IMG/VR virus record: IMGVR_UViG_3300029448_005000
Coordinates: 1-27,957 of that record
Source: a virus
DNA length: 27,957 nucleotides
Reading direction: 5' to 3' (one strand)
The notes under the pieces were generated by a model. That model was not told where the DNA came from, did no database searches, and was given only the letters and a program-made list of their open reading frames with translations. The position numbers and the translations under genes were made by a program. Positions 1,045-16,788 of the stretch are shown piece by piece (the stretch's first letter is position 1; the number at the start of each line of letters is the position of its first letter).

Positions 1045-4000
1045 ATGTTAGAAAATTTATATCAAGTATTGGTTTCAAGAAATCAGTTACCAAGAGGACT
1101 GTCATTTAATGACTTTAGATACCAATACGAAAACAATCCGAATTTTAAAATATCAATAGACACTTCAGTAAAACGAATAGAAGACGAGCTAGGCTTGTCT
1201 CAACCTCAAGTTACCGATCAAAAACTAGGAAGACAATTTACTTATAAAGGAGAAAAATTTGTTTCACAAGAAGAAGAAAATGTAGGTGACTTCTTTGGTG
1301 ACTTCTTTGGTGATATGATTAGATCTTGGAAGTCAGGCTGGCAAGCATCTGATGCTGTTGATGAGACAATAACTCTAATGAACAGTAAGTTTGGTAGCTC
1401 AGGTGTTTCTGATCAAGATATACAAAAATTTATAGATTCTTACCAACAGTCTACAGACGTTGGCATGACTGATGAAATGCAACGCTTTAATAAAGAATAT
1501 GAAGAGCAAGGTGGTGGCGTATGGGGTTTTGTAAAGGGTGTTGTTAATAACCCTGGTGTTGCGCCGCAACTATTTGTGTCATCAATGGCAACATTAGCAG
1601 GATCATTTGCAGACTCTGAAGAGCTAGCTAGTGCTACACTTGGTGGTGCTGCTGCGGGTGGTGCGTTTGCAGGTGTTGGTGCAGTAGCTGGTGGTGTAGG
1701 TGCACTTGCTGTAGGTATGGAAGGAGCGTTAACGTTTGCAGAGTTATTAAGAGATGAGGTAGGTGAAAGAGATTTTAATATTGATAATGTAAGAGCTGTA
1801 CTTAGTGATAAAAAAAGATTTTCATCAATATACAATAAAGCTGTTGGTAGAGGTGTTGCGATAGGGTTGGTTGAAACAATGACAGCAAGACTAGCAGGTA
1901 CAACAGCAAGAGCTGTAAGAGGTGCTGTAAAGAAAGGTCAAAGAGCAGCCGCGTCTGCAGTTGGTGTAGGTGTTGAAGCTGTTGGTGGTGGTACAGGTGA
2001 AATATTTGGAAGGCTAGCAGCTGACCAAGAGATGGATGTCAGAGAGATAGGATTTGAAGCTATAGGTGGTACAGCAACAGCACCACTAACAATCGGTAGA
2101 GCAGCGTTTGCTCCTAACGCTACATACAATTTAAACAATCAAGAACTTACTGGAAACGAATTTAGAAAAGCTATTAATTCATTAGATGCTAAAACATTGT
2201 TGTCTAACAAGCTTAAAATTGATATAAAGAACGATGCTAATATGGAAGCATTAGTTAATGATAAAAGAAAAGATGCTTTGTATGATATGCAAATTGATAA
2301 CAAAGTAAAAGACGTTGCTGATAGAAGAAGAATAGTAGAACTAGAAAAGAAATATGCTAGTATTAAAGATCAAACAAGCGTATCAGGTAACATAAAAGCA
2401 ACAGAGTATAGAAACGAAATAAAACAAATACTAGGTAAGTACGGACAAAAAGCAGCTGACGCAGATTTAGTTTTACAAGGTGGCGTTCAAGTTAAAAAGT
2501 TACTTAACTTAGAAGATAACTTAGCTAAAACAGAAGGTTTTGCTAGGTTATTAAATATAAACTATAAAGAGTTTAATACGGATGAAGAATATAGAGAAGC
2601 CGTACAAAAACTATCAGGAGAAACTGTTAAAGAAAAGTCTTCAGAGGGCGAGATATTTCAAGATCCAGAAACAGGTAAGCAAACAATTTTTATAAATAAA
2701 GAAGTAGCAAGACAAAGTAAATTCTTTACAGTTGGTCAACACGAGTTGTTACATGGCTTATTACATGAGACATTAAGAAACAATGATGAAACCGCTATAC
2801 AAGTTGGTAAAACACTAGAAGGTTTTATATTTAATTTAGATGTTGACGCTGTTAACAGTCAGTCACTAAGATCAAGAATAAAAAAATATCAAACAGCTGT
2901 TGACGCTGGACAGTATGATACAGCCGCAAGATACGAAGAGGTTGTAACGTTAGTATCTGAAGCGTTAGCAAATAATGAATTAAAACTAAACACACCACTA
3001 TGGCAGAAGGTTGTTGATGCTGTAAGACAATTTATGAGAAAGCATTTTAATCAAGACATAGAAATAAAAGATGCTGGAGATATAATTAATTTTATCAAAG
3101 ACTACAACAAAAGTTTTGAGCAGGGTGTTTTATATAAGTCTATAGGTAGACTAACTGATAAACAACTACAAGTTAAAATAGAAAACGATCCAACGTTAGA
3201 TAGAATAATTAAGCTTGCTAAAAAAAGAAATACAAACAAAAAGTCTTTTGTAGATGATTATAATGATTTTAAGCTAGATCCAGAGACAAGAAAAAATACT
3301 GTTAACAATGCTTTTAAACAAGACGGTATAGACGGCTTAGTAAATAACTCACATTTATATCTACATAACATCGCAACGCTTATACAGGGTACACAAATGT
3401 ACGATGTTGATCGTATGTCTCAAGAAGAAATAAAAAAAGATAAACAAGATTTATTAGGTGACACACTAGATAACTTAATAAAACACATCAAAGCATATAA
3501 ATCAGAAAGAAACAATGATCCTGACGCTTACATAAACTCATTTATAAAATTTAAAATGGGTACAGCTGCTAAGAAATTACAAAGAACAGAAACAAAAGTA
3601 ACTGAAGCGCAAGAAAGAAAAGCAAGGCAAAGCGCTACGTTAGAAACGTTAAGCGATGAAGCTACAGCGACAATGATAGATATGTTTGAATTAGGCTCAA
3701 CAGAACAAAATAAACTAAACGAGGCAGTAAAAGCATCAGTTAATAGTGTTTTAAAAGATATGACTATTGGTGTAAAACCAAAAAGATCAAAGCTTGATTT
3801 ACAAAGCACGTTTAGAAAAGTTCTAAACAAAGAAATAAAAAAGACTATAAAGAAAAAGCCAGTGTATCAAGCTTGGTTAAAGAAAAACTTTCCAACATTT
3901 TTTAATGATGTTAATGTTGAAACGTTAAACAAAAGATTTAGAGGAGACAAGAGTAATCCAGATTTATTTGTAAGACCTACAGGAAAAAGATATTCAAGAA

Positions 4001-7000
4001 CAGCAACATCACAACCTCAATTATTTGAAAAGCAACCTTTAGCTCAAGTGATGCAAGGTTTAGATGATTACTTTATAAACGTGTCAGCTCAAAACGTAAA
4101 CAATAGAAAAGACAAAATAGTAGAAGAGATATCTAACTACATGGCATTTGAAGCTGCAAGAAAAATTACCTCATCACCTGATATATTTACAATTATAGAT
4201 GAAATAGGTATTACAAAGCTCGATGAAATTAATGAGCAAAGAGTTGAAGCTATAGTAAAAGATACTAGAGATGTAACAAATATAAGAACAAAACTTAAGC
4301 TAGCTGATTTAACGCCTGACATGAGAGGTAAACACGAAAGTAAAATTATAGATACATTTAAAACATATCAACCAATTGATATGTCAGGTAATGTTTCAGA
4401 GATATACTTAGCTCAGAAAAAGAAGATGCTAGCAACTATACCTGAAGAGGATAGAGCAGGCGTTGAAGCTTTTATGAACGATAGAGAGTACATGATAGCA
4501 AAACCACAAACAGGTTTATTTGTAGCAAATGTAAAAAGAACTCATGATAAAGAAGTATTAGATTATTTATACGAAACAGACAACGCAACAGCACCTACAA
4601 CTGAAAAGCAAGTTAGAGAAACAACTAATCACGCTGTTGAAATGATTAAGAGTATACCACCTCAAGTATTAAAAACATTAGTTGGCGACAAAGCAACAAC
4701 AACAGCGTTAACGTTTTTTGGCTTAAAAGATACTAATATGTCTATTGATAATTTACCATGGACAATTAAAAGTGAAAACAAATATTTATTAGGCGCTATA
4801 GACTCTCTCAATGAACACTTAAACTCACAAGAAACTGTAGACGAAGTATGGGATAGTTTAGATATTGATCCCGCTTGGAACTTTAAAGAATATGCTCCTG
4901 TAAATAAAACATCTGGTTTAATAGCAAATATATCAAAAGATCTAGAATCAAACTCAAGTAACAACCAACAAGAAATAATAGATAAATACAAAAACAAAGT
5001 TACACTAGCAAATGTAAATAACCCAAAGGTTCAAGCGTACATGCAATATAAATTTGCTGAAGCGTATAAAAACAGCAACGTAAAAAACAAAGCTGCAAAC
5101 ATAAGGTTATTACAAGGAACAACAAACGCAACCGAGTCGTTTGTTAAAGCGTTAGCTAAAATAAAATACATACATGTATTAAATGGTAAGCCTCAATTAG
5201 CACCTACAAAAAGTACATTATGGGGATATTTAGAGCATTTAAAAGAAAACGCAAACACATTAACTGACTTTAATAAACTAAATCTTGAATACGTTAACGA
5301 TAAGATAACTCAAGAAGAGTATATGGCAGAAGCTAAAAAACTAGCCAATCAAATGGAGATCAGTTATAATGATACTGATTTGTCTGTTATAGAGTTAGAT
5401 AGAAATTTTAACAAAAACTTAGGACAAGGTGATTTTAAACTAAGAGCGCTAAAACCAAAGGACTTAAATAACTTTATAAATATTGAAACTGGTAAAAACG
5501 CTAACACAGAATTAGCAGACAAAATGTTTGCGATGGAAGAAAATAATAACTTGTTAATTAGAAAACAAAAGTTAGCAGACCCATCTGACCAGCTTAAGAA
5601 ATTTAAAAACTACGACAAAGCCTTGAAGATGGCTAATCGTTTAAACCCACCAGAAAAAGGTATAAGTATATTAGACTTTGATGACACGTTGGCTAAGACT
5701 AAATCTAACGTGCTTTACACGCTCCCTGATGGCACGAAAGGAAAAATTGATGCTACAGCATTTGCAGAGCAAGCTGGAGCCTTAGAAGCTGCAGGAGCTA
5801 AGTTTGATTTTAGTGAGTTTAGTCAGGTAAAAGCTGGTAAAAAAGGACCGTTTTTTGCTAAAGCTTTAGATCTTATAGGAAAGTACGGTAACAAAGATAT
5901 GTTTATATTAACAGCAAGACCTCAAGAGGCTGCACCTGCTATACAGAAATTCTTAAAAGGTGTTGGGTTAAATATAAAAGTTGAAAACATTATAGGTTTA
6001 GAAGATGGTAGGCCAGAGGCTAAAGCAGAATTTATAGTTGATAAAGCCGCTGAAGGTTATAATAACTTTTTGTTTGCTGATGACGCTGTTAAAAATACAA
6101 TTGCTGTTAACGAAGTGTTAGAAAGTTTAGATATTAATGGTAAAGTATATCAAGTTAAACAAGACTTCAGGCAAAACATGGACCAGAAGTTTAACAAGAT
6201 ATTAGAGCAAGTTAAAGGTATAGATCGTAATGCTGTTTTTTCTGATGCTGCAGCTAGAGTACGTGGTGCTTTAAATGATAAGTTTTGGTCAAGATTATTT
6301 GTGCCACCAGGTGCTGATGATTTTAAAGGTTTGATGTATTACTTTATGGGTAAAGGCAAACAAGGTCAAGCACACGCTGAATTTTTTAACGAAACATTAT
6401 TTAAACCATTTGCTAAAGCAACAAAGAGTATTAACGCGGCTAGACAGAGAATAGTTAATGAGTATGCTCAGTTAACAAAGGACATGCCAGCAGTAAAGAA
6501 GATGTTACTTAAAGCAACTGGCTACAGTAATTTTACGTACGATCAAGCTATAAGGGTTTACTTAATGCATCAAAATAACATTGATATACCTGGCTTAGCA
6601 AAAAGAGATTTAACAGCTTTATTAGATATAGTAAAATCTGATCCTAGTTTAGTATCATATGCTGACAAAGTTTCAGCTATAACAAGATTAGATGAAGGCT
6701 ACGTACAACCTGATGACGTTAATTGGTTAGCATCAACGATAGAGTTAGATTTAAGATCTATCACAACCATAACTAAAAGAGCAGAATATCTTTCTGAGTG
6801 GAAAGCAAATAAGGATGCTATATTTACACCTGATAATCTAAATAAAATAGAAGCTATATACGGTGCTAGCGTAAGATCAGCACTAGAAGATTCATTGTAT
6901 CGTATGGAGATCGGTACTAACAGACCTACAGGTATGAGTAAAATAGCTAATGAATTTACTGACTGGGCCAATGGTGCTGTTGGTAATATAATGTTCTTTA

Positions 7001-8184
7001 ATATAAGATCAGCTGTACTACAAACAATATCATTTGCTAACTTTGTAAACTGGAGTGATAACAACCCTTATAAATACATGAAAGCTGTTGGTAACTTTCC
7101 ACAGTTCGCTAAAGACTTTGCTATGATATGGAACTCTGACTTCTTAAAAAGCAGAAGACAAGGGCTACAAACTGACGTTAACGCGTCTGAAATAGTAAAT
7201 CAAGCCGCTAATTCTAAAAATAAAGTTAAAGCACTTATAGCTTATGTACTTGGTAAAGGTTATTTACCTACACAAATGGGTGATAGTTTTGCGATATGTA
7301 CGGGTGGTGCAGGTTTTTATAGAAATAGAGTTGATTCGTATTTAAAGCAAGGTTTAAATTTAAAAGAAGCGGAGTCAAAGGCGTTTAGTGACATGCAAGA
7401 AACATCTGAAGACGCACAGCAATCAGCAAGACCAGATAAAATATCACAACAACAAGCTAGTGAAATAGGTAGATGGATACTTAGTTTTCAAAACACACCA
7501 ATGCAATATACAAGGATAATAAAGAAAGCTGCGTTAGATTTAGCTAACAAAAGAGGTGACGCTAAAACTAATATATCTAAGATAATTTATTATGGTGCTT
7601 TACAAAACCTAATATTTACCTCATTACAAAATGCAATTTTTGCTTTAGCATTTAGCGACGTTGAAGAAGACGAAGAAAAAGAAAAGTATAGTAGAATAGC
7701 AAATGGTATGGTTGATACTATACTAAGAGGCACAGGTATTTACGGTGCTGTAGCAGCTATGCTAAAGAACGTAGCGCTAGAGTTTGTAGATCAAAACAAA
7801 AAAGGATATAGAGCTGATCACGCGTACACAGTGCTAGAAGCAGTTAACTTATCACCAGCACTTGGTAGTAAAACTAGAAAAGTATACAGCGCTACACAAG
7901 CAGTTAAATTTAACAGTGATGAAATAATGTCAAGAGGTTTTCATATAGATAACCCAGCGTACGAAGCTGTAGCTAATGTAACATCAGCTGCAATTAACTT
8001 ACCAGTTGATAGAGCGTTAAGGATAACAGATAATTTACGTGAAGCTACTAATAAAGAAAATCAAGCCTGGCAAAGAATAGCTTTAACTCTTGGCTGGAGC
8101 ACGTGGGACTTAGGCATAGAAGGTCAACGTAGAAAAAAAGATAAGAAAAAGAAAAAGAAGAAAGGTGGACTTAAATTATTATAA
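1045..8184 (+). CDS. Giant polyvalent virion-type protein (zincin-like and HAD domains)
   Basis: A 2379-residue protein starting at ATG in the context AATTATG. Visible regions in order: an N-terminal part with a duplicated GDFF segment (residues 81-88); Gly/Ala-rich, membrane-like stretches at about 173-240 and 270-350; a zincin-like motif H566-E-L-L-H570 with another His at 574 and Glu-rich helices after it; long Lys-rich helical regions; an HAD phosphatase-like domain at about 1540-1705 with D1544-F-D1546-D-T, T1623 and D1679-D1680; a C-terminal region (about 1760-2330) resembling the C-terminal domain of phage large polyvalent proteins; and a Lys-rich tail. Such proteins are thought to be packaged in the virion and delivered with the DNA (established for some families, inferred here). 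No RNA polymerase motif was recognised. An ejection or internal core protein is the best guess; catalytic activity of either domain is unproven. Confidence 0.9.
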   Translation: MLENLYQVLVSRNQLPRGLSFNDFRYQYENNPNFKISIDTSVKRIEDELGLSQPQVTDQKLGRQFTYKGEKFVSQEEENVGDFFGDFFGDMIRSWKSGWQASDAVDETITLMNSKFGSSGVSDQDIQKFIDSYQQSTDVGMTDEMQRFNKEYEEQGGGVWGFVKGVVNNPGVAPQLFVSSMATLAGSFADSEELASATLGGAAAGGAFAGVGAVAGGVGALAVGMEGALTFAELLRDEVGERDFNIDNVRAVLSDKKRFSSIYNKAVGRGVAIGLVETMTARLAGTTARAVRGAVKKGQRAAASAVGVGVEAVGGGTGEIFGRLAADQEMDVREIGFEAIGGTATAPLTIGRAAFAPNATYNLNNQELTGNEFRKAINSLDAKTLLSNKLKIDIKNDANMEALVNDKRKDALYDMQIDNKVKDVADRRRIVELEKKYASIKDQTSVSGNIKATEYRNEIKQILGKYGQKAADADLVLQGGVQVKKLLNLEDNLAKTEGFARLLNINYKEFNTDEEYREAVQKLSGETVKEKSSEGEIFQDPETGKQTIFINKEVARQSKFFTVGQHELLHGLLHETLRNNDETAIQVGKTLEGFIFNLDVDAVNSQSLRSRIKKYQTAVDAGQYDTAARYEEVVTLVSEALANNELKLNTPLWQKVVDAVRQFMRKHFNQDIEIKDAGDIINFIKDYNKSFEQGVLYKSIGRLTDKQLQVKIENDPTLDRIIKLAKKRNTNKKSFVDDYNDFKLDPETRKNTVNNAFKQDGIDGLVNNSHLYLHNIATLIQGTQMYDVDRMSQEEIKKDKQDLLGDTLDNLIKHIKAYKSERNNDPDAYINSFIKFKMGTAAKKLQRTETKVTEAQERKARQSATLETLSDEATATMIDMFELGSTEQNKLNEAVKASVNSVLKDMTIGVKPKRSKLDLQSTFRKVLNKEIKKTIKKKPVYQAWLKKNFPTFFNDVNVETLNKRFRGDKSNPDLFVRPTGKRYSRTATSQPQLFEKQPLAQVMQGLDDYFINVSAQNVNNRKDKIVEEISNYMAFEAARKITSSPDIFTIIDEIGITKLDEINEQRVEAIVKDTRDVTNIRTKLKLADLTPDMRGKHESKIIDTFKTYQPIDMSGNVSEIYLAQKKKMLATIPEEDRAGVEAFMNDREYMIAKPQTGLFVANVKRTHDKEVLDYLYETDNATAPTTEKQVRETTNHAVEMIKSIPPQVLKTLVGDKATTTALTFFGLKDTNMSIDNLPWTIKSENKYLLGAIDSLNEHLNSQETVDEVWDSLDIDPAWNFKEYAPVNKTSGLIANISKDLESNSSNNQQEIIDKYKNKVTLANVNNPKVQAYMQYKFAEAYKNSNVKNKAANIRLLQGTTNATESFVKALAKIKYIHVLNGKPQLAPTKSTLWGYLEHLKENANTLTDFNKLNLEYVNDKITQEEYMAEAKKLANQMEISYNDTDLSVIELDRNFNKNLGQGDFKLRALKPKDLNNFINIETGKNANTELADKMFAMEENNNLLIRKQKLADPSDQLKKFKNYDKALKMANRLNPPEKGISILDFDDTLAKTKSNVLYTLPDGTKGKIDATAFAEQAGALEAAGAKFDFSEFSQVKAGKKGPFFAKALDLIGKYGNKDMFILTARPQEAAPAIQKFLKGVGLNIKVENIIGLEDGRPEAKAEFIVDKAAEGYNNFLFADDAVKNTIAVNEVLESLDINGKVYQVKQDFRQNMDQKFNKILEQVKGIDRNAVFSDAAARVRGALNDKFWSRLFVPPGADDFKGLMYYFMGKGKQGQAHAEFFNETLFKPFAKATKSINAARQRIVNEYAQLTKDMPAVKKMLLKATGYSNFTYDQAIRVYLMHQNNIDIPGLAKRDLTALLDIVKSDPSLVSYADKVSAITRLDEGYVQPDDVNWLASTIELDLRSITTITKRAEYLSEWKANKDAIFTPDNLNKIEAIYGASVRSALEDSLYRMEIGTNRPTGMSKIANEFTDWANGAVGNIMFFNIRSAVLQTISFANFVNWSDNNPYKYMKAVGNFPQFAKDFAMIWNSDFLKSRRQGLQTDVNASEIVNQAANSKNKVKALIAYVLGKGYLPTQMGDSFAICTGGAGFYRNRVDSYLKQGLNLKEAESKAFSDMQETSEDAQQSARPDKISQQQASEIGRWILSFQNTPMQYTRIIKKAALDLANKRGDAKTNISKIIYYGALQNLIFTSLQNAIFALAFSDVEEDEEKEKYSRIANGMVDTILRGTGIYGAVAAMLKNVALEFVDQNKKGYRADHAYTVLEAVNLSPALGSKTRKVYSATQAVKFNSDEIMSRGFHIDNPAYEAVANVTSAAINLPVDRALRITDNLREATNKENQAWQRIALTLGWSTWDLGIEGQRRKKDKKKKKKKGGLKLL
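1285..1308 (+). repeat. Two tandem 12-bp units inside the giant gene
   Basis: The unit GGTGACTTCTTT occurs twice in a row and is followed by a partial third copy (GGTGA). It encodes GDFF-GDFF-GD. The repeat keeps the reading frame, so it looks like a small in-frame duplication in the coding sequence rather than a regulatory site. Confidence 0.7.
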
Positions 8185-8203
8185 TTAGACGTAATTATAA
8201 ATT

Positions 8204-8245
8204 ATGGCAGCACAAAATAACACAACAACTAAATCACTTTCATAA
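8204..8245 (+). CDS. Possible 13-residue leader peptide
   Basis: A short ATG frame encoding MAAQNNTTTKSLS lies between the giant gene and the next gene. It has the same AATTATG start context as long genes here, and its stop overlaps the next start as TAATG. It could be a real mini-protein, a leader that couples ribosomes into the following gene, or chance. The polar sequence gives no clue to function. I keep it only because of the start context and the exact stop-start overlap. Confidence 0.25.
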   Translation: MAAQNNTTTKSLS

Positions 8246-8538
8246 TGGCGGAAATATTAGATAAACAAGTAGGTATTGATATAGATGGCGATAAAAAGCC
8301 AGATATAAAACTCGATATTAAGAGTATAGCTATCGTTGTAGGTTTTATTATTAGTGGCTCTATGGGTTATCAAAGCCTAAAACAAGAGATAGAGCTTGCT
8401 AAAGAATTACCTGTTTACGAAGTTAAAGAAACCTCTGATGGTTTATTACTTAAACAAAAGGTTGAATATCTTGAGAAAGAAATAGAAAACCTAGAGGACA
8501 AAGTAAAAGATATCGAGAACAAAGTATACAAAAGATGA
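8245..8538 (+). CDS. Single-helix membrane protein with coiled coil, holin or i-spanin candidate
   Basis: A 97-residue protein. Residues 12-20 form an Asp-rich loop (D12, D14, D16, D20) that resembles an EF-hand or dockerin-type calcium loop. One hydrophobic helix follows at about 27-45, and then a charged heptad-like segment (about 67-95) that should form a coiled coil. One helix plus coiled coil next to an endolysin is the shape of an inner-membrane spanin, and small membrane proteins here can also be holins. Neither role is proven. The start overlaps the tiny upstream frame (TAATG) and the stop overlaps the HMA gene, which indicates translational coupling within a lysis-type operon. Confidence 0.85.
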   Translation: MAEILDKQVGIDIDGDKKPDIKLDIKSIAIVVGFIISGSMGYQSLKQEIELAKELPVYEVKETSDGLLLKQKVEYLEKEIENLEDKVKDIENKVYKR

Positions 8539-8855
8539 TAGCAAAATTATTTATATTAGCTTTAGCGTTAAATAACATCACGTTAAAAGTTACAGGACTA
8601 ACATGCAGCATGTGTTCATTTAGCGTACAGAAAAGTGTAGAAAAAGTATACTTTGTAGAAAGTGTAGAGGCTAATATAGAAGATACCACTTTTGAAATAA
8701 GATTTAAAAAAGATAATTACGTAGATTTTTTTGCTATACAAAACGCTGTAGAAGATGCAGGGTTTTTTATAGATAAAGAGTCAGTTGCTGTAGATACAAA
8801 AAACACAAATGAATTTTGGCAAAACAGCAATTATATTATTTGGAAAAATAAATAA
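8535..8855 (+). CDS. Phage-encoded HMA (heavy-metal-associated) domain protein
   Basis: A 106-residue protein with a short hydrophobic N-terminus (about 1-14) that may be a signal peptide or anchor. After it come residues typical of the ferredoxin-like HMA fold: GLTCSMC with C24 and C27, a following helix containing SVQKSV, a strand with VESVEANI and a final AVEDAGF segment. This is the pattern of CopZ/Atx1/MerP-type proteins, which bind Cu(I) or other soft metals through the two cysteines. If exported it would act in the periplasm like MerP. The start ATG overlaps the upstream stop (ATGATAG) and the endolysin follows after 6 bases. Metal and role in infection are unknown; the fold assignment rests on the motif and overall pattern. 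Confidence 0.85.
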   Translation: MIAKLFILALALNNITLKVTGLTCSMCSFSVQKSVEKVYFVESVEANIEDTTFEIRFKKDNYVDFFAIQNAVEDAGFFIDKESVAVDTKNTNEFWQNSNYIIWKNK

Positions 8856-8861
8856 TAATTT

Positions 8862-9323
8862 ATGATAAGTAAACACATAAGTATGCGTGAAGGCACGTAT
8901 AGCATTACAGCAACAAGATTAGGTTTAGAAAACAAACCAACTGAAGAACATCTTAACAACATGAAGTTGTTAGCTGTAAAAGTGTTTGAACCACTTAGAG
9001 AGTGGGTAGGCGGTCCTATCAGAATAAATTCATTTTATCGTGGGCCAGAGTTAAACAAAGCTATCGGCGGTAGTAATAAGTCACAACATTGTCACGGCCA
9101 AGCTGTTGACATAGATGACGTGTATGGACACAAAACAAACGCTGAGATGTTTAACTATATAAAAGATAATTTAGAATTTGATCAGATGATTTGGGAGTTT
9201 GGTGACCACAAAAATCCTGACTGGGTACACGTAAGCTATGTTAATCCAGGCGAAAACAGAAACAGATGCTTAGTAGCGTTTAGAAAAGATGGAAGAACTC
9301 AGTACGCAAACTACGCAGCTTGA
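8862..9323 (+). CDS. M15-family peptidase, probable endolysin
   Basis: A 153-residue protein with the peptidase M15A signature S74-x-H76-x-x-G79-x-A81-x-D83 and, downstream, WEFG (E112) and WVH (H123). In the family H76, D83 and H123 bind zinc and the Glu is catalytic. These enzymes cleave peptide cross-links of peptidoglycan and act as endolysins in many phages. The length matches a single catalytic domain without a cell-wall-binding domain and there is no signal peptide, so export through a holin would be expected. The start follows the context AATTTATG. The last 35 bases overlap a frame-shifted mini-gene. Confidence 0.92.
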   Translation: MISKHISMREGTYSITATRLGLENKPTEEHLNNMKLLAVKVFEPLREWVGGPIRINSFYRGPELNKAIGGSNKSQHCHGQAVDIDDVYGHKTNAEMFNYIKDNLEFDQMIWEFGDHKNPDWVHVSYVNPGENRNRCLVAFRKDGRTQYANYAA

Positions 9324-9420
9324 TATTTTAGTATTTTCAGTTTTTGTTGCATTAGCGTACATAACAAAAGTTCTTGTAACTAATATCCCAGAAGACAATG
9401 ATACAAACAATAAGGAATAA
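9289..9420 (+). CDS. 43-residue single-helix mini-protein overlapping the endolysin
   Basis: An ATG frame in another register starts inside the 3' end of the endolysin gene and ends 22 bases into the next mini-gene. The product has a polar N-terminus (about 1-11), one hydrophobic helix (about 12-31, LDILVFSVFVALAYITKVLV) and an acidic/Asn-rich tail. Small one-helix proteins embedded in lysis genes are often holins, antiholins or spanin parts. The frame is too short for default gene callers. Support comes from the clean membrane helix, the position filling an otherwise empty gap, and the overlap pattern seen throughout the genome. Confidence 0.6.
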   Translation: MEELSTQTTQLDILVFSVFVALAYITKVLVTNIPEDNDTNNKE

Positions 9421-9532
9421 ATGGAAAAATAAAAAACCAGAAGATAAAGTAGTACTCATAATATTTGGACTACAAATCACCTGGTTAATAACCATAATTG
9501 TCGCGCATTACATTTTTAAACTTTGGACATGA
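9398..9532 (+). CDS. 44-residue single-helix mini-protein
   Basis: Starts at ATG within the end of the previous mini-gene and ends in ATGA overlap with the lipoprotein gene at 9529. The first 18 residues are strongly basic (RNKWKNKKPEDK); residues about 19-42 form one hydrophobic helix with two Trp. A basic cytoplasmic N-terminus would give an N-in topology. A holin, antiholin or spanin-like role is possible given the neighbours (endolysin upstream, lipoprotein downstream), but no family is recognised. Confidence 0.6.
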   Translation: MIQTIRNKWKNKKPEDKVVLIIFGLQITWLITIIVAHYIFKLWT

Positions 9533-9999
9533 CAGATAAACAGAGAGACTTAGGTAGACTTATAACGTTAGCAATACTACTCAGCATATTACTTGTAGGT
9601 ATATTATCTAGTTGCGCGCCTATGTTATACAATCGTAATCAAGTTATGGTAACGCATGTACTAGCGTTAACTGAAATGGGTGACACAGTTAAGATAAGAA
9701 TAGATCAAATACGACCACAACAAACCTATAATGTTGTTGGCTATGACTTTGTTAGATGGCAAGATAATAGATATTATGTACCACATTATGATCGTCACTA
9801 TGATTATAGATATCATGATAGTAGATGGAGATACCACGGTAGTGCACAAGGTAACTATGGTTACATAACACCAAACCCTAATATAAACAATAGTCCACCT
9901 ATATCTGTAGGTAGTCAAACAACAGGTGGTAGTGGCGCGCCAATAGCTAGTAACCCTGTAACATCAGGTGGTGGTAGCTCAAGAGGTAAAAACAATTGA
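9529..9999 (+). CDS. Tyr/His-rich lipoprotein, o-spanin-like candidate
   Basis: I choose the ATG at 9529, which overlaps the preceding stop as ATGA, over an upstream TTG at 9523. Residues 1-10 are charged, 11-26 hydrophobic, and L26-S-S-C29 fits a lipobox, so the mature protein should be lipidated at C29. The mature part has a beta-like segment, then an unusual Tyr/His/Arg-rich stretch (about 86-112, with repeated YD, RY and HY) and a Gly/Ser/Pro/Asn-rich low-complexity tail. A phage lipoprotein beside an endolysin suggests an outer-membrane spanin partner, but the length (about 156 residues) and composition are not typical, so a surface or exclusion role is also possible. Confidence 0.8.
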   Translation: MTDKQRDLGRLITLAILLSILLVGILSSCAPMLYNRNQVMVTHVLALTEMGDTVKIRIDQIRPQQTYNVVGYDFVRWQDNRYYVPHYDRHYDYRYHDSRWRYHGSAQGNYGYITPNPNINNSPPISVGSQTTGGSGAPIASNPVTSGGGSSRGKNN

Positions 10000-10256: not shown

Positions 10257-10472
10257 ATGTGGGCATTATTTAAAGATAAAAACGATATAAACGAAAAGAA
10301 CGTAATAGGATTTGCGTCTTTCATAGTAATGACTTTGTTTGCTATAGCAGACTTAATGACAAGTCTTATAGCAGATAAAGATCTTATTATAAACGAAGTA
10401 GTCTATAACTCATTTGTATGGGTTACATTAGGTTGCTTTGGAATATCAGCATTTGAAAAAACAAAGAAATGA
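10257..10472 (+). CDS. Two-helix small membrane protein, holin candidate
   Basis: The ATG at 10257 follows the context TATTATG, four bases after the upstream stop; a longer frame from GTG at 10212 would overlap the previous gene by 41 bases and is less likely. The 71-residue product has a charged N-terminus, two hydrophobic helices at about 16-38 and 46-64, a short charged loop between them and a Lys tail. Two-helix small proteins of this size near an endolysin are often class II holins. The family is not recognised, so holin is an inference from topology and location. Confidence 0.75.
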   Translation: MWALFKDKNDINEKNVIGFASFIVMTLFAIADLMTSLIADKDLIINEVVYNSFVWVTLGCFGISAFEKTKK

Positions 10473-11288: not shown

Positions 11289-11422
11289 AATTTAATTTTT
11301 TTGATTTAAATGAGAACGGTAAATATGACTGGTGGGAATATATACTACCAATTGTTGTATTATTAATTATTGAGGTTATAGCCGAGGTTGTAGCTAGATT
11401 TTTGACACAGCCGTTTTTTTAG
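11285..11422 (+). CDS. 45-residue single-helix mini-protein at the end of the rightward block
   Basis: The ATG overlaps the upstream stop (ATGA). The product has an aromatic/acidic N-terminus (MKFNFFDLNENGKYDWWEY), one hydrophobic helix (about 19-40) and a short tail. Residues 7-15 (DLNENGKYD) again look like a calcium-loop-type Asp/Asn-rich turn next to a membrane helix, as in the protein encoded at 8245. Its last 29 bases overlap, on the opposite strand, the end of the GT29-like gene. Confidence 0.65.
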   Translation: MKFNFFDLNENGKYDWWEYILPIVVLLIIEVIAEVVARFLTQPFF

Positions 11423-12188
11423 CTACACTTCTTATTATCTTCTGACCTTTCATCCAACCAGTATATTCAACTTTATTTCTTTTCATATCACTTAACGTGT
11501 GCCACTCAAGCAAACCATCACGTTCTAACTTACTCACATATTGATTTTCTAAATTACGATCATGCGCTGAATGCTTTGTAGTATAAAGAGGTAAATGCCA
11601 ACTGTGAGGATCACATTCACCATTACCATCTTTTACATTTTTAGCCATGTATGTACTCTTCTTTACACTCTTATGAAAGAAGTCAAATCCAATAATACTC
11701 AATTTCTTTTGAGTGTTAATTTCCCTAATAAAATATAGTATTGTTAAAAACCCAGCTGAAGGCCTGAGTTGTAAGCTGTACATTGAATTACCAAAACCGT
11801 TCCACAGCGATTCTAGCTCTGCGTCTGACCACATCTGAGTATAAGGCATACCCTTTGGTAGATGATCTTCTAATACCCAGTCTTTGAGTAAAAAATTACC
11901 ACGACATCTATTAAGTAATATTTCAACATCTTTAAATTTACCTTTTGTAAATTCTTTATTACGCCTCTTCCATATAGGAGCTCTGAACTGACCAGTTACC
12001 CACACGTTTGTCTTACTACCTAATTGTTTTCCTTTATCATCAGCTATACTATCAACAGCTCTACCAAAGCGTACAACAATATCATGGCTGTCTATGAACG
12101 CGCCATAATCATGATGCATTAACTCTACAGAGTTGCCAACAAGTATTACTGATTTATTCTTTACAAGCTGTTGTATACGCTCCACCAC
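11394..12188 (-). CDS. GT29 (sialyltransferase-fold) glycosyltransferase, possible Kdo transferase
   Basis: A 264-residue protein with the sialyltransferase L motif (about 12-66: SVILVGNS, IDSHDIVVRFGRA, GSKTNVWVTG), the S motif (about 142-170: RPSAGFLTILYF then IIGFDFF) and a late His-containing motif (H206, H209 in KHSAHDRNLE). Family GT29 enzymes transfer a sugar from CMP-sialic acid; some plant members are linked to CMP-Kdo transfer. The genes just upstream in the operon make CMP-Kdo, so Kdo is the likely donor here (inference). There is no signal peptide or membrane anchor, so it should act in the cytoplasm. No ATG lies before the L motif; GTG at 12188 or 12185 is the likely start, overlapping the GT8-like gene by 28 bases. 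Acceptor unknown. Confidence 0.85.
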   Translation of the reverse strand: MVERIQQLVKNKSVILVGNSVELMHHDYGAFIDSHDIVVRFGRAVDSIADDKGKQLGSKTNVWVTGQFRAPIWKRRNKEFTKGKFKDVEILLNRCRGNFLLKDWVLEDHLPKGMPYTQMWSDAELESLWNGFGNSMYSLQLRPSAGFLTILYFIREINTQKKLSIIGFDFFHKSVKKSTYMAKNVKDGNGECDPHSWHLPLYTTKHSAHDRNLENQYVSKLERDGLLEWHTLSDMKRNKVEYTGWMKGQKIIRSVAKKTAVSKI

Positions 12189-12811
12189 TCTTCTGATAAC
12201 TCTCCATCTTTATATTTGTCAAACCAAGGTCCACCGTTAGTATAGTGTATCGCTTTTATGTTATCATTTTTTTCATAATAACCTACTAAGTGATTATACT
12301 CAACTGGTATCTCAGCTATCTCACTCTCATCTATCCACTCAAATTGATGTAATTGCTGTGGTGTAGCATTATCTAAATATTCTTTAGTTAATATATCTTT
12401 TAGTTTCTCACAGTTAAAAACTATTAATGAGCTCCAACATTTCTTTGGATACATTTTATTTTTAACACCATCCATCTTTGTTCCTTTAACATTATCTAGA
12501 TCATGCTTTACAACTGCTATTGTTTTATCTCCTAGGTATTGTACAACCTCTTCAGGATCACATTTCCAAACAAAGTCATTATCACAAAACATGGCTATGC
12601 CATTCCAGTTGTTACACAAAGGTGTATAAAACCTTGTAAAAGAAAATTCTGTTGATTCATTAGGCACATCTTTTCTACCATAAATACCACGCTTAATTAG
12701 CTGTGCTTTTACTAAAGACATAACCTCGTGGTCACCGTTGTCTAATATAGACTTTCTAACTACTTTTGTAGCTTGCGGATGACGTGAATCACTTCCTATA
12801 AATATTCTCAT
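12161..12811 (-). CDS. GT8-like glycosyltransferase
   Basis: A 216-residue protein with a GT-A-type pattern: N-terminal IFIGSDSR, the segment STEFSFTRFYTPL where GT8 enzymes bind the nucleotide sugar, a D77-N-D79 (DxD) metal motif in GIAMFCDNDFVW, and a C-terminal H189-Y-x-x-G-x-P-W, which matches the metal-binding His and GPxKPW region of LgtC and glycogenin. The family transfers hexoses from UDP-sugars with retention. The start overlaps the kdsA stop as ATGA, so production is coupled to Kdo synthesis. Donor and acceptor are unknown; an outer-core or virion/host glycan is possible. It is shorter than LgtC (about 310 residues), so some elements are missing. Confidence 0.75.
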   Translation of the reverse strand: MRIFIGSDSRHPQATKVVRKSILDNGDHEVMSLVKAQLIKRGIYGRKDVPNESTEFSFTRFYTPLCNNWNGIAMFCDNDFVWKCDPEEVVQYLGDKTIAVVKHDLDNVKGTKMDGVKNKMYPKKCWSSLIVFNCEKLKDILTKEYLDNATPQQLHQFEWIDESEIAEIPVEYNHLVGYYEKNDNIKAIHYTNGGPWFDKYKDGELSEEWWSVYNSL

Positions 12812-13560
12812 GCTATAAATTTTAATATTGTTTCAAAATTATTTAACGGTACCATATTAGGACCATCGCTTAAAGCTTTATCCGGGTCAGGATGTACTTC
12901 AAAAAAGTAACCATCAACATCAACCGCTTGTGCTAACTTAGCCATGTATGGTGCATACTTTCTATCACCACCACTTTTATTGCCAAGAGCGCTGGGTTTT
13001 TGAGTTGAATGAGTAACGTCCATAACTATAGGTACGTTAAATTTTTTCATATCTAGTATCTGTCGGAAATCTACAACTAAGTTACCTAAACCAAACATAG
13101 TTCCACGCTCAGTTACCATTATATTATTATTACATGTGGATTGCACTTTTTTAATTGGGTGCTCCATGTTGTTACCACTCATAAACTGTGCCTTCTTTAT
13201 ATTTACGGTCTTACCTGTTCTGCCGGCTGCAATTAAAAGATCTGTTTGTCTACATAAAAAAGCAGGTATTTGTATAACATCAACAACATCTTTAACTTGT
13301 ATAGCCTGTATAGGTTCGTGTATGTCTGTTGTTATTTGAACATCAAACTCTTTTTTAACTTTAGCTAGTATTTCTAATCCCTCTTGTAAACCTGGTCCTC
13401 TGTATGAGTCTACAGAAGTTCTGTTTGCTTTATCAAATGAAGCTTTAAATATGTAATCAAAACCATACTTAGCTGTAAGTTCTTTTACCTTTTCTGCTAT
13501 TTTCATACATGTGTACTCACTCTCTATAACACATGGTCCTGATATTATAAACTTATCCAT
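12808..13560 (-). CDS. kdsA: 3-deoxy-D-manno-octulosonate 8-phosphate synthase
   Basis: Condenses arabinose-5-phosphate and phosphoenolpyruvate to Kdo-8-phosphate, the first committed step to Kdo of lipopolysaccharide. The 250 residues cover the whole TIM barrel with FKASFDKANR, SYRGPG, DIHEP, QIPAFLCRQTDL, DVTHSTQ and EVHPDPDKALSDGP. C10, H184, E221 and D232 match the four ligands of the metal-dependent class, whereas the E. coli type has Asn in place of the Cys; so this enzyme should need a divalent metal. I take the ATG at 13560, with an 8-base overlap with kdsB, though one six bases upstream is possible. No partner for arabinose-5-phosphate isomerase or Kdo-8-phosphate phosphatase is seen, so host enzymes must serve. 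Confidence 0.95.
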   Translation of the reverse strand: MDKFIISGPCVIESEYTCMKIAEKVKELTAKYGFDYIFKASFDKANRTSVDSYRGPGLQEGLEILAKVKKEFDVQITTDIHEPIQAIQVKDVVDVIQIPAFLCRQTDLLIAAGRTGKTVNIKKAQFMSGNNMEHPIKKVQSTCNNNIMVTERGTMFGLGNLVVDFRQILDMKKFNVPIVMDVTHSTQKPSALGNKSGGDRKYAPYMAKLAQAVDVDGYFFEVHPDPDKALSDGPNMVPLNNFETILKFIA

Positions 13561-14185
13561 TAACATCTTCTTGTGTATTTATTTCTCTACCTTCATATTT
13601 AACCTCACATACTTTAATATCATATAAACCTAAATATCTATTTTGTTCTAAGTTTTCTTGTGGATATTCATCATCTAATAAATCATAACACTGTAAAGCG
13701 TGTGGTCTATACATGTATATACCAAGGTGTCTATCACCATAACCAATATCAGATCTAGTAAACCACATAGCTTTACCTGCTTGATGTACAACCTTAACAC
13801 CGTTTGGCTCGTAACCTTTTGTGTAAGCTGTGTATACTACAAAATTATTTTTAGCTCTATCAATAAAAGGCTTTACAGTTTTATGTGTTATATCTATCAT
13901 GTCACCCTGTATATTGATTATAGTTTGATACTCGCTTAAAAATTCATGAGCTTGAGCTATTCTAGCTGTCCCATTTTCTGCCTCATTAGTCATAATAACA
14001 TTGTTGCTAGGTATAACTTCTGCTATTTTAGGACTATCAGTTATAACAAATGTATCATAACCCATAGTACGTACTTTATCAAATACTATACGTATTAGTG
14101 GCTCATCATCAAACATCATAAGCATTTTATGTTTTAGCCTAGTACTCTCTAGTCTAGCTGGTATTACAAATACTATATCTTTCAT
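13553..14185 (-). CDS. kdsB: CMP-Kdo synthetase (3-deoxy-manno-octulosonate cytidylyltransferase)
   Basis: Activates Kdo with CTP to CMP-Kdo. Family landmarks: VIPARLESTRLKHK (CTP-binding loop), ENGTARI, N91-I-Q-G-D95 with the metal-binding Asp, NGVKVV, WFTRSDI followed by RHLGIYMYR, and LEQNRYL. At 210 residues it is shorter than the usual 245-260: about 15 residues are missing before RHLGIY and the C-terminal helix is absent. The usual VDTPEDL near the end reads INTQEDV, so the second metal-binding Asp is Asn203. GTER also reads GTAR. The enzyme may still work or may have changed substrate. Its start overlaps the cupin stop (ATGA) and its stop overlaps kdsA. Confidence 0.9.
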   Translation of the reverse strand: MKDIVFVIPARLESTRLKHKMLMMFDDEPLIRIVFDKVRTMGYDTFVITDSPKIAEVIPSNNVIMTNEAENGTARIAQAHEFLSEYQTIINIQGDMIDITHKTVKPFIDRAKNNFVVYTAYTKGYEPNGVKVVHQAGKAMWFTRSDIGYGDRHLGIYMYRPHALQCYDLLDDEYPQENLEQNRYLGLYDIKVCEVKYEGREINTQEDVNG

Positions 14186-14526
14186 GCTCTCTTACCTGAT
14201 GTTCTTCTTTTTATATCATCGTGGTTAAACTCAGCCCAGTATAACTCAAAAGCTACACCATCTTCAACACCTTCAAACTGATGGTATTTACCAGGTTTAA
14301 CCATAGTAAAATCACCTGCTTCTAATATTGTCTCATCTAAAAGATTTTGATCATCTTGCCAGACTCTGACTAACATTTTACCGGACTCTACATAAAATCC
14401 GTTCCATTTAAATTCATGCTCATGCTCTGAGCATTTAAATCCTTTATTAAATTCTATTCGGTGAAACTCAAAAACCCCATTAGCGTGGATCTTTTCAGTT
14501 TTTCCCCATATTTTTCCTGCTTTCAT
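14182..14526 (-). CDS. Small cupin protein
   Basis: A 114-residue single-domain cupin: motif 1 with H35-E-H37 in KCSEHEHEFKWNGFYVESG, and motif 2 with GDFTMVKPGKYHQFE, where H82 is the remaining metal-binding His. This fold includes sugar isomerases, epimerases, dioxygenases and binding proteins. Location between the SDR and kdsB suggests a role in sugar chemistry, for example isomerisation of a sugar phosphate, but nothing in the sequence fixes the reaction. The ATG lies inside the 3' end of the SDR gene (32-base overlap), and its stop overlaps the kdsB start. Confidence 0.8.
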   Translation of the reverse strand: MKAGKIWGKTEKIHANGVFEFHRIEFNKGFKCSEHEHEFKWNGFYVESGKMLVRVWQDDQNLLDETILEAGDFTMVKPGKYHQFEGVEDGVAFELYWAEFNHDDIKRRTSGKRA

Positions 14527-15094
14527 TTAATTTTATTTGTTTTTGTTTTTGTACTTCTACATAAGACTCATTGTGATATAAATCTATTGAGCCTATTTCT
14601 AATTTTCTTCTTTGAGTAGCGTTTTGAATTAACCATACTATAGTATGTGCCGCTTCTTTATATGTTAAACTAGGTAAATCTGATTCTAATAAACCTAAGT
14701 TGACATCTACTATCTTACATTTTTTAGGTGTAGTAAATTTTAAACTATCCGATAAATGTGATAAAGATGCTTTAGAAGCTGAGTACATATAACCTTTTGA
14801 TAGGTTAGGATACTTTGCTCTACTATTTATATTTACAATAACTTTACTTGAGTCATTAGCCCATAAGTTAAACACAGCTGCTAACACTTCTGTCTGACAA
14901 AATGTTTCATGAGCATTGTTTATAAAAACTCTATACTCAGGGCTTTTTAATTCTTCAATTAATGTATTTATACATTTAGGACAGCATATATCATACTTAG
15001 GCCTATTAAAACCTATTGGTACCCACTTGCCGCACAACTCATTTTGTATTGCTTTACCTAAGCCTCTAGTTGTTCCCGTTATCGCTACTTTCAT
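14495..15094 (-). CDS. Short-chain dehydrogenase/reductase (SDR)
   Basis: A 199-residue Rossmann enzyme: nucleotide-binding TGTTRGLGKAI (TGxxxGxG, residues 6-13), INNAH after strand 4, catalytic Ser in NINSRAKY (S91) and Y104-S-A-S-K108 (YxxxK). It ends with a shorter substrate region and a Lys/Gln-rich tail. SDRs reduce or oxidise sugars and many other substrates with NAD(P)(H). In this operon a step in making or modifying a nucleotide sugar or glycan is the likely job. It starts 29 bases inside the radical SAM gene. About 50 residues shorter than typical classical SDRs, mainly at the C-terminus. Confidence 0.85.
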   Translation of the reverse strand: MKVAITGTTRGLGKAIQNELCGKWVPIGFNRPKYDICCPKCINTLIEELKSPEYRVFINNAHETFCQTEVLAAVFNLWANDSSKVIVNINSRAKYPNLSKGYMYSASKASLSHLSDSLKFTTPKKCKIVDVNLGLLESDLPSLTYKEAAHTIVWLIQNATQRRKLEIGSIDLYHNESYVEVQKQKQIKLNESRKNMGKN

Positions 15095-16007
15095 AATGTT
15101 TATTTATAAGATCAAAACTAGGCTTACCAAATAAATCACCTTTAACAGAGCATTTATCACATGGGCTCTGTGATCTATCACCGTGCTTTAATCTTTGTCT
15201 TATCTCTTTCATATCATCAGCCATCCAAACCTCTTCTAATGTTTGTTTAGCTATGTTACCTATCTTTCTTTCTTTACCCCAGTCATTTGAACAGAACAAC
15301 ACATCACCGTTCCAGTCAACAAACATCTTATAAAATGGGTAATGACATGGCTTACCTTTCAAAGCTTCAATATCATGATCTTCAAAACCTATCCAGTCTA
15401 TAATACCACTTCTATTGTTAAGCTTTAAACCATAATCTTTTAAATTATAGTGTGCACGTAAACTATACTTTGATTTAGATATACCAGCTTCATCCATAAG
15501 AGTCGCAAATACACCTGCTTGCTCTGGTCCATCATACAAGTTTATATAAAACATAGATAGGCCAGCGTTATAAATATCTAATATCAATTGTGGTTTACGC
15601 TTTAGCATATCACCATTTGTATTACACTCTAGTAGATTATCTTTTAAATGTTTTCTAAAAGTAAAAACTATATCAGGAAAGCTTTTGTTTAATAAGCCTT
15701 CACTGTATCCACTAAAAGATATTCTACCTGTGTAATTAGCATCAGCCAAGTGTTTTGCTATTTTTTCTGCTGTATCAACAGACATATTTAAATTTCTGTT
15801 AGGATACACACTTGAATCATGACGCGGACAGAATACACATTTTCTATTACACAACTCAGTCGTATTAAGTTCAATAGTAAGTATAGCATCTAACGGGTTA
15901 GTACTACCTTTTATTCTGTTTAAATGTACTTGTTCTTGTTTTTTTCTATATTCAAGAAAAGTATCCGCATCATGCGTTTGATGCTGTCTTCTTTCTTCGT
16001 GTTTCAT
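15066..16007 (-). CDS. Radical SAM/SPASM enzyme
   Basis: A 313-residue protein with the radical SAM cluster motif C53-N-R-K-C57-V-F-C60, a TIM-barrel core, and a C-terminal SPASM-type region with C221 (KPCHYPFYKMFVDWNGDVLFC), C239, C283 and C286 (SPCDKCSVKG), enough to bind an auxiliary iron-sulfur cluster. Proteins with the CxxPFxxMxVxxxGxVxxC pattern are frequent in surface-polysaccharide clusters and modify sugars or other small molecules; anaerobic maturase-type peptide modification is another option. Flanked by the Cupin_4 gene (one-base gap, TAATATG) and the SDR (29-base overlap). The first 35 residues are polar and charged. Substrate unknown. Confidence 0.9.
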   Translation of the reverse strand: MKHEERRQHQTHDADTFLEYRKKQEQVHLNRIKGSTNPLDAILTIELNTTELCNRKCVFCPRHDSSVYPNRNLNMSVDTAEKIAKHLADANYTGRISFSGYSEGLLNKSFPDIVFTFRKHLKDNLLECNTNGDMLKRKPQLILDIYNAGLSMFYINLYDGPEQAGVFATLMDEAGISKSKYSLRAHYNLKDYGLKLNNRSGIIDWIGFEDHDIEALKGKPCHYPFYKMFVDWNGDVLFCSNDWGKERKIGNIAKQTLEEVWMADDMKEIRQRLKHGDRSQSPCDKCSVKGDLFGKPSFDLINKHYESSDNGNN

Positions 16008-16008
16008 A

Positions 16009-16788
16009 TTACCACTTCCTGTTATCTCTCCATTTATACGGAAAGTCCTCAGTATTTAAATGACCATTAGCATCATACTTTTCTGGTTGCCATTTATACC
16101 ATGGCTCACGTTTAGAATTTTTTGATATTTGAAAATTCTTTAGCGACTGCTTTGGTTTGTTTGGAAAATGAATACTACATAATATTCTAGCACCAATAGG
16201 TATAACCTCATGATATTGAAACTGTGGTATATATAATAAATCACCTGCCTCTAATATAAACTCTTCAAGTATTTCTTTAGGTTTATCTGGTGCAAACTCT
16301 TTAAATATTCTCCATTTAACTCTACCTTGAGTATGAAACAAAAAGTTCTCTGTATTATCAGCGTGCGCCGGAAAACTTTTAGATCCTTTACCAGGCGACG
16401 CGTATACATTAACCTGACCTTTTGCAAAATACCTTTCAAATGTTTTACAAACATTCATAAGTACTTCTTTTCTATATTCAGCAAATGGTATTACAAATGA
16501 TTTACCATCTGTCCACGCTTTGTGTACTTGTGTTTTAGTTAGCATAGGTAATTTTAATTTACCTTTTTTAACTTTATCAAGACACCACTTCTCATGTTTA
16601 TCATCCCAACCTATTATTTGTAGGTTAGGTATTTTAGGAAACTCGTTCATGTACTGTTCAAAGTCTTTCCAGTTAAACAGGTTTTTAAATTTGTTTCTTC
16701 TTAATACTAAATGCTTTTTACCCCAGTACTCTTTAAAAAATACTTTAGGCTCAACAGGATCTAGTAACTCTTTCATTAAATTATCCAT
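16009..16788 (-). CDS. Cupin_4/JmjC-like 2-oxoglutarate oxygenase
   Basis: A 259-residue protein. The N-terminal FFKEYWGKKHLVLRR segment is typical of the YcfD/RoxA ribosomal-oxygenase group. Iron ligands are visible: H142-x-D144 in FPAHADNTENFLFHTQGRVK and H193 in GDLLYIPQFQYHEV. YcfD hydroxylates an arginine of ribosomal protein L16; this shorter protein lacks the family's C-terminal winged-helix part. It may hydroxylate a protein or a small molecule connected with the neighbouring sugar genes. I take the ATG at 16788, which overlaps the nrdA stop by 8 bases, over a GTG one codon upstream. Confidence 0.82.
   Translation of the reverse strand: MDNLMKELLDPVEPKVFFKEYWGKKHLVLRRNKFKNLFNWKDFEQYMNEFPKIPNLQIIGWDDKHEKWCLDKVKKGKLKLPMLTKTQVHKAWTDGKSFVIPFAEYRKEVLMNVCKTFERYFAKGQVNVYASPGKGSKSFPAHADNTENFLFHTQGRVKWRIFKEFAPDKPKEILEEFILEAGDLLYIPQFQYHEVIPIGARILCSIHFPNKPKQSLKNFQISKNSKREPWYKWQPEKYDANGHLNTEDFPYKWRDNRKW

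Follow-up and report, generated by a model that had tools for sequence, protein, structure and literature searches.

Among the closest described systems for the locus analysed here are the HMA-domain proteins MerP and CopZ on the one hand, and the lysis proteins RI/T of phage T4 and Rz/Rz1 on the other. CopZ is cytosolic, and the CxxC sites of HMA domains typically favour soft metals. We know of no earlier case in which an HMA domain was connected with lysis genes, and little is known about the timing and execution of lysis in phages of marine Bacteroidota, a group of major degraders of algal sugars. In T4, the antiholin RI is exported by an atypical, poorly cleaved signal peptide and restrains the holin T, which has one N-in transmembrane (TM) segment and a periplasmic domain (PMC11413866). 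A survey of spanins defines the layout of i-spanins and ties intermolecular disulfides to the two-component type (PMC6139136).

The locus lies in a stretch of 27,957 nucleotides (IMG/VR record IMGVR_UViG_3300029448_005000, positions 1 to 27,957), hereafter the window. The features relevant to the argument are listed below; the term lysis cassette, as used here, is a putative label taken from the family matches of the neighbouring genes.

8245–8538, plus strand: TMcoilA, small one-TM protein with a C-terminal coiled coil (weak PHROG holin/anti-holin match, E 1.4e-4)
8535–8855, plus strand: HMA-domain protein of 106 residues (from the ORF call, Pfam, AlphaFold and Foldseek), with a hydrophobic N-terminus (residues 1–12), an HMA fold (14–87) containing C24-x-x-C27, and a conserved aromatic tail (89–105)
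8537–8861, plus strand: HMA cassette, present or absent by comparison with relatives L043–L046
8862–9323, plus strand: M15_3 peptidase, predicted endolysin (PF08291, E 5.7e-15; PHROG 894 endolysin, E 1.4e-31)
9529–9999, plus strand: lipoprotein with lipobox LSSC, candidate o-spanin (start and lipobox read by eye)
10257–10472, plus strand: small membrane protein (weak PHROG holin match, E 0.0034 for a longer reading from 10212)

An HMA protein between a membrane protein and a predicted endolysin

The start codon of the HMA gene is fixed by an in-frame stop just upstream in most relatives, and the encoded protein matches PF00403 in Pfam (E 2.7e-8; 34.5 bits against a cut-off of 24.8) over model positions 1–61 of 62, that is, over the whole domain and above the curated cut-off. 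The AlphaFold model, whose confidence is moderate (mean pLDDT 73, with residues 1–11 below 50 and the tail at about 50), places strands at residues 14–20, 41–47, 52–57 and 78–87 and helices at 25–36 and 65–74, in the beta-alpha-beta-beta-alpha-beta order that the initial annotation had anticipated. Foldseek searches of the PDB with this model returned oxidised MerP (1osd, E 1e-5) and CopZ (2qif, E 6.6e-5) as nearest matches, with TM-scores of up to 0.87 by target length, and a profile of the HMA relatives retrieved copper ATPase domains, CopA, MerP and CopZ from the PDB. C24 and C27, the only cysteines of the protein, are invariant in all 20 distinct family sequences. By score, fold and CxxC the protein is a member of the HMA domain family, and it would presumably bind metal. 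The likeness to MerP and CopZ, the conserved cysteines and the position between a membrane protein and an endolysin in a lysis cluster, all claimed by the initial annotation, are thus borne out.

MerP is the top Foldseek match and shares with the phage protein a single HMA domain with CxxC and probable export, whereas the phage protein differs in its extra tail and its lysis context. It scores 33.2 bits against the MerP model TIGR02052, below the cut-off of 92.55, and no mer genes are found among its immediate neighbours, the TMcoil and M15 genes. The likeness to CopZ lies in the fold and the CxxC; the best NCBIfam CopZ model gives 45.6 bits against a cut-off of 91, and no CopA-like gene was seen beside the phage HMA gene.

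In the window the M15 gene adjoins the HMA gene at a distance of 7 bases, an arrangement that would fit a metal chaperone for the zinc-dependent endolysin next door. The initial annotation had raised such metal loading and proposed a search for HMA genes beside M15 endolysins in other phages. Among 16 contigs searched for M15_3, one of which (L043) carries no HMA gene and was left out of the count, 8 of the 15 with an HMA gene gave a match (the contig of L052 and 7 of the other 14). The rest, one of them 48.7 kb long, gave none, though contigs may be incomplete. Since M15 genes accompany only about half of them, HMA genes track M15 genes only loosely: many HMA loci have a DUF5675 gene instead, and many M15 loci carry no HMA gene. 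Together with the typical preference of HMA CxxC sites for soft metals, this makes a chaperone for the endolysin barely credible, and of the initial interpretation it is this part that is disfavoured, while the fold, the CxxC, the lysis-cluster position and the rarity stand. Copper poisoning or protection of the cell, also raised there, may play a part, the data speaking neither for nor against it.

Two more small ORFs, unlisted, 43 and 44 codons long and each with a hydrophobic segment, separate the M15 and lipoprotein genes in the window (9289–9532, plus strand); the second overlaps the lipoprotein start as ATGA (by eye).

Pairing with a membrane coiled-coil gene

The stop codon of TMcoilA overlaps the start codon of the HMA gene as ATGA in the window. 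TMcoil proteins, of which we distinguish the subfamilies TMcoilA and TMcoilB, have one hydrophobic segment followed by about 50–65 residues and are shorter than lambda Rz; the coiled coil was assigned by eye, with weak matches to coiled-coil families as a guide. Their matches to lysis families are weak, and their role in lysis is putative. Lysine and arginine are richer on the N-terminal flank of the TM segment in 140 of 160 distinct TMcoils (2 show the opposite and 18 are ties), and by the positive-inside rule TMcoilA is predicted to be N-in. A disulfide between the HMA CxxC and the TMcoil coiled coil was considered and ruled out, as TMcoils have no cysteine after the TM segment. Separately, the TMcoilA N-terminus (8275–8316 in the window) carries a conserved D/G pattern, IDIDGDKKPDIKLD, which resembles a calcium-binding loop and falls on the side predicted to be cytoplasmic.

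Counting distinct sequences rather than independent evolutionary events, 19 of 20 HMA genes stand immediately behind a TMcoil gene (TMcoilA in 10 and TMcoilB in 9); the exception, that of L017, lies further down the region, just before nrdA. An ATGA overlap joins 93 of 113 TMcoil-to-partner pairs; among the remaining neighbouring gene pairs of these loci it occurs in 164 of 935. That the HMA gene almost always sits behind a membrane gene of this cassette, and overlaps it, suggests that the phages have co-opted a metal- or thiol-binding fold, either for the lysis apparatus or for its timing.

Akin to Rz/Rz1, the two genes overlap and the upstream one encodes a predicted N-in TM segment with a putative coiled coil, whereas the product of the downstream gene, the HMA protein, has no lipobox cysteine and so is no lipoprotein. 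We nevertheless considered a spanin accessory, in which TMcoil would be the Rz-like subunit of the inner membrane, the lipoprotein the Rz1-like subunit of the outer membrane, and the HMA or thioredoxin fold a periplasmic adaptor between them. The predicted layout of TMcoil (N-in TM, C-terminal coiled coil) resembles that of an i-spanin, and the lipoprotein family directly follows the TMcoil gene in some contigs; in others, however, it is often several genes away, TMcoil is short and has no cysteines in the part after the TM segment for the intermolecular disulfides associated with two-component spanins, and the HMA protein has no lipobox, so that an adaptor of this kind is unlikely.

The commoner partner of TMcoil is a secreted thioredoxin-fold protein of 105–110 residues (AlphaFold pLDDT 87; Foldseek matches are thioredoxins). 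Scanned for independently, 105 of its 113 members come after a TMcoil. In most members the WCxxC motif has become WNxxN, and 51 of the 113 have no cysteine at all. This replacement of CxxC by NxxN in the commoner partner suggests that the shared job of the partner slot is protein binding rather than redox catalysis, the HMA version adding a thiol/metal site. The genes around TMcoil pairs include M15 or DUF5675, 3-TM holins and the lipoprotein, with TMA-TRX-TMB-HMA, DUF5675-TMA-HMA, TMB-TRX-M15 and TMA-HMA-M15 (the order of the window itself) as common arrangements; no thioredoxin-like gene was found within the window fragment. The three commonest parts of the cassette have 286, 140 and 299 matches in IMG/VR. 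As an observation in its own right, the NxxN thioredoxin-fold family recurs, coupled to the membrane coiled-coil gene, at L031:7364–7696 and at over 100 other loci.

Comparison with relatives revealed that the HMA gene can be missing from the locus. In L043–L046 the end of TMcoilA runs straight into the M15 gene; L043 is 98% identical to the window DNA over 8191–8536, and identity of the four loci resumes at 8862 (92–94%). On the basis of these near-identical loci we regard the HMA gene as an optional cassette. TMcoilA with up to 100% protein identity also occurs away from any adjacent HMA gene, and of 16 such contigs, which may be incomplete, 15 have no HMA gene elsewhere, the remaining one being that of L017; TMcoil therefore seems independent of HMA.

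N-terminus, tail and a proposed role in lysis

A hydrophobic N-terminal segment, as the initial annotation described it, is found in all 20 distinct relatives (mean Kyte-Doolittle of residues 2–12 from 1.8 to 2.9). At 12 residues it is short for a signal peptide, has no lysine or arginine in about half of the relatives and mostly no clear A-x-A; its sequence varies while its hydrophobicity is kept. From this hydrophobicity we tentatively predict export, although the N-terminus is unusually short. The most constrained part of the protein is the tail, residues 89–105, with a pN/pS of 0.075; the HMA domain has a value of 0.29 and the N-terminus one of 0.60. The many synonymous differences within the tail (pS 0.81) rule out constraint at the DNA level as the cause and place it at the level of the protein. 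No such aromatic tail was seen in the cellular relatives, and we take it as a presumed docking element.

The fixed pairing, the coupled translation and a conserved tail of non-cellular type speak for joint action of the HMA protein with TMcoil or the TMcoil complex, and the data are compatible with a role in lysis, which is our best reading. Specifically, we tentatively propose, with somewhat less than even confidence, that the HMA protein is exported and serves as an optional partner to a membrane lysis protein, adjusting lysis in the manner of T4 RI, with its CxxC as a metal or thiol switch. The N-terminus would carry the protein into the host periplasm, the host being a member of the Bacteroidota, or anchor it there; translational coupling would favour its assembly with TMcoil, whose coiled coil would also face the periplasm; the aromatic tail would dock on the TMcoil complex; and the CxxC, by binding Cu(I) or another soft metal or by forming a disulfide, would switch the complex, so that lysis would be delayed or triggered, as RI restrains T. 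The likeness to RI/T is one of layout only, that is, a small, probably exported protein whose target would be a lysis protein with a single N-in TM segment and its C-terminal part outside; the signal peptide of RI, too, is atypical. The two systems showed no sequence relation, the HMA protein has no antiholin PHROG match with an E-value of 1 or less, T is larger than TMcoil, and many cassettes have separate 3-TM holins. Against the proposed lysis partnership also stand the occurrence of TMcoilA up to 100% identical in loci devoid of HMA, the L017 gene away from TMcoil and near nrdA, the putative function of TMcoil with its weak lysis-family matches and its lack of cysteine after the TM segment, and the N-terminus of 12 residues, short for a signal peptide and devoid of lysine and arginine in about half of the relatives. 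A bolder and rather doubtful extension is a modular two-gene lysis unit, combining TMcoil with an exported partner, either a dead thioredoxin or a live HMA domain, the HMA version of which would make lysis sensitive to copper or the redox state in the periplasm. If the proposed partnership holds, this would be, as far as we know, the first HMA domain linked to phage lysis genes, and an uncultured but recurrent cassette is in any case now tied to concrete, testable two-gene units.

Relatives, rarity and host

The first two scans of IMG/VR returned 22 HMA relatives, down to 63% identity, and a later scan added one more, more diverged relative in L052; all 20 distinct viral relatives come from uncultured (metagenomic) virus contigs. 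The rarity in phages that the initial annotation had asserted was upheld: a protein search of 50,697 phage records gave no credible match (best E 0.3), a search of predicted viral structures gave none below 0.001, and the open-access literature yielded no phage lysis cassette with an HMA protein. TMcoilA, TMcoilB and the thioredoxin-like protein likewise had no credible match among deposited phages. The primase-helicase of the window is closest to that of Cellulophaga phage phi10:1 (42.5% identity over 97%) and the nearest cellular HMA relatives found are from Bacteroidota, on which grounds the contig probably comes from a Bacteroidota phage; the carriers are a marine phage family that probably infects Bacteroidota. 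In trees of poor resolution the phage HMA proteins cluster in 60% of bootstrap replicates and may have a single origin.

Cellular relatives at E 1e-8 or better (down to 1e-18) occur in 22 of 296 Bacteroidota genomes. Most are secreted-looking proteins of about 160–190 residues with a GLTCSMCS or similar motif, and the next gene usually encodes an outer-membrane-barrel-like protein with no Pfam match; TlpA-like thioredoxins or cysteine-rich proteins are often nearby, and some loci adjoin multicopper-oxidase-like or MauG-like genes (all these neighbours named by eye). The phage form shares with them the HMA domain (up to 51% identity over 57 residues) and the L-T-C-S-M-C-S motif; in contrast to the cellular form, whose signal peptide is normal-looking, it has a shorter N-terminus, an aromatic tail of its own, no C-terminal domain and no barrel neighbour. 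As a side observation, the operons L296–L298, L300, L302–L304 and L307 encode a secreted TlpA-like thioredoxin together with a secreted HMA protein, and most also hold the barrel-like outer-membrane protein devoid of a Pfam family; we read them as a putative metal system.

This kinship raises the main rival reading, which we hold somewhat less probable than the lysis partnership: the HMA gene would be an auxiliary (moron) gene captured from the secreted Bacteroidota family, its product would buffer or deliver a soft metal such as copper in the periplasm during infection, and its position would reflect only the tolerance of the lysis region for insertions. The secreted GLTCSMCS-type proteins as nearest cellular relatives, some beside multicopper-oxidase-like or MauG-like genes, the optional presence of the gene and the invariant CxxC give such an origin good support, but chance insertion leaves unexplained why 19 of 20 placements follow two TMcoil subfamilies with start-stop overlap, and why conservation is strongest in a C-terminal tail of non-cellular type. 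Much less probable still in our estimate is a mimic that competes with the host HMA protein at the outer-membrane barrel, for example blocking superinfection or disabling that system. The homology to the host-type domain with loss of the C-terminal domain, and the secreted thioredoxins of the host operons set beside the thioredoxin-fold partner of the phages, would be in keeping with it, yet nothing supports the barrel as a receptor or as a binder of the cellular HMA protein, the thioredoxin of the phages belongs to the short classical kind rather than the TlpA-like one, and the lysis-cassette placement is left unexplained.

Two further regions of the window deserve mention. A 2379-residue protein (1045–8184, plus strand) has no Pfam match and matches PHROG 32588, of unknown function (E 3e-50); by eye it carries the motifs HELLH, as in zinc proteases, and DFDDTLAK, which is HAD-like. 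On the minus strand, 11394–16791 holds a sugar cluster with a GT29-like glycosyltransferase, another possible glycosyltransferase, a DAHP/KdsA-type synthase (E 1.6e-62), a KdsB-like cytidylyltransferase, a cupin, an SDR, a radical SAM/SPASM protein and a JmjC-like cupin, a gene content that may serve the phage to synthesise or alter a surface sugar, KDO-like or of another kind.
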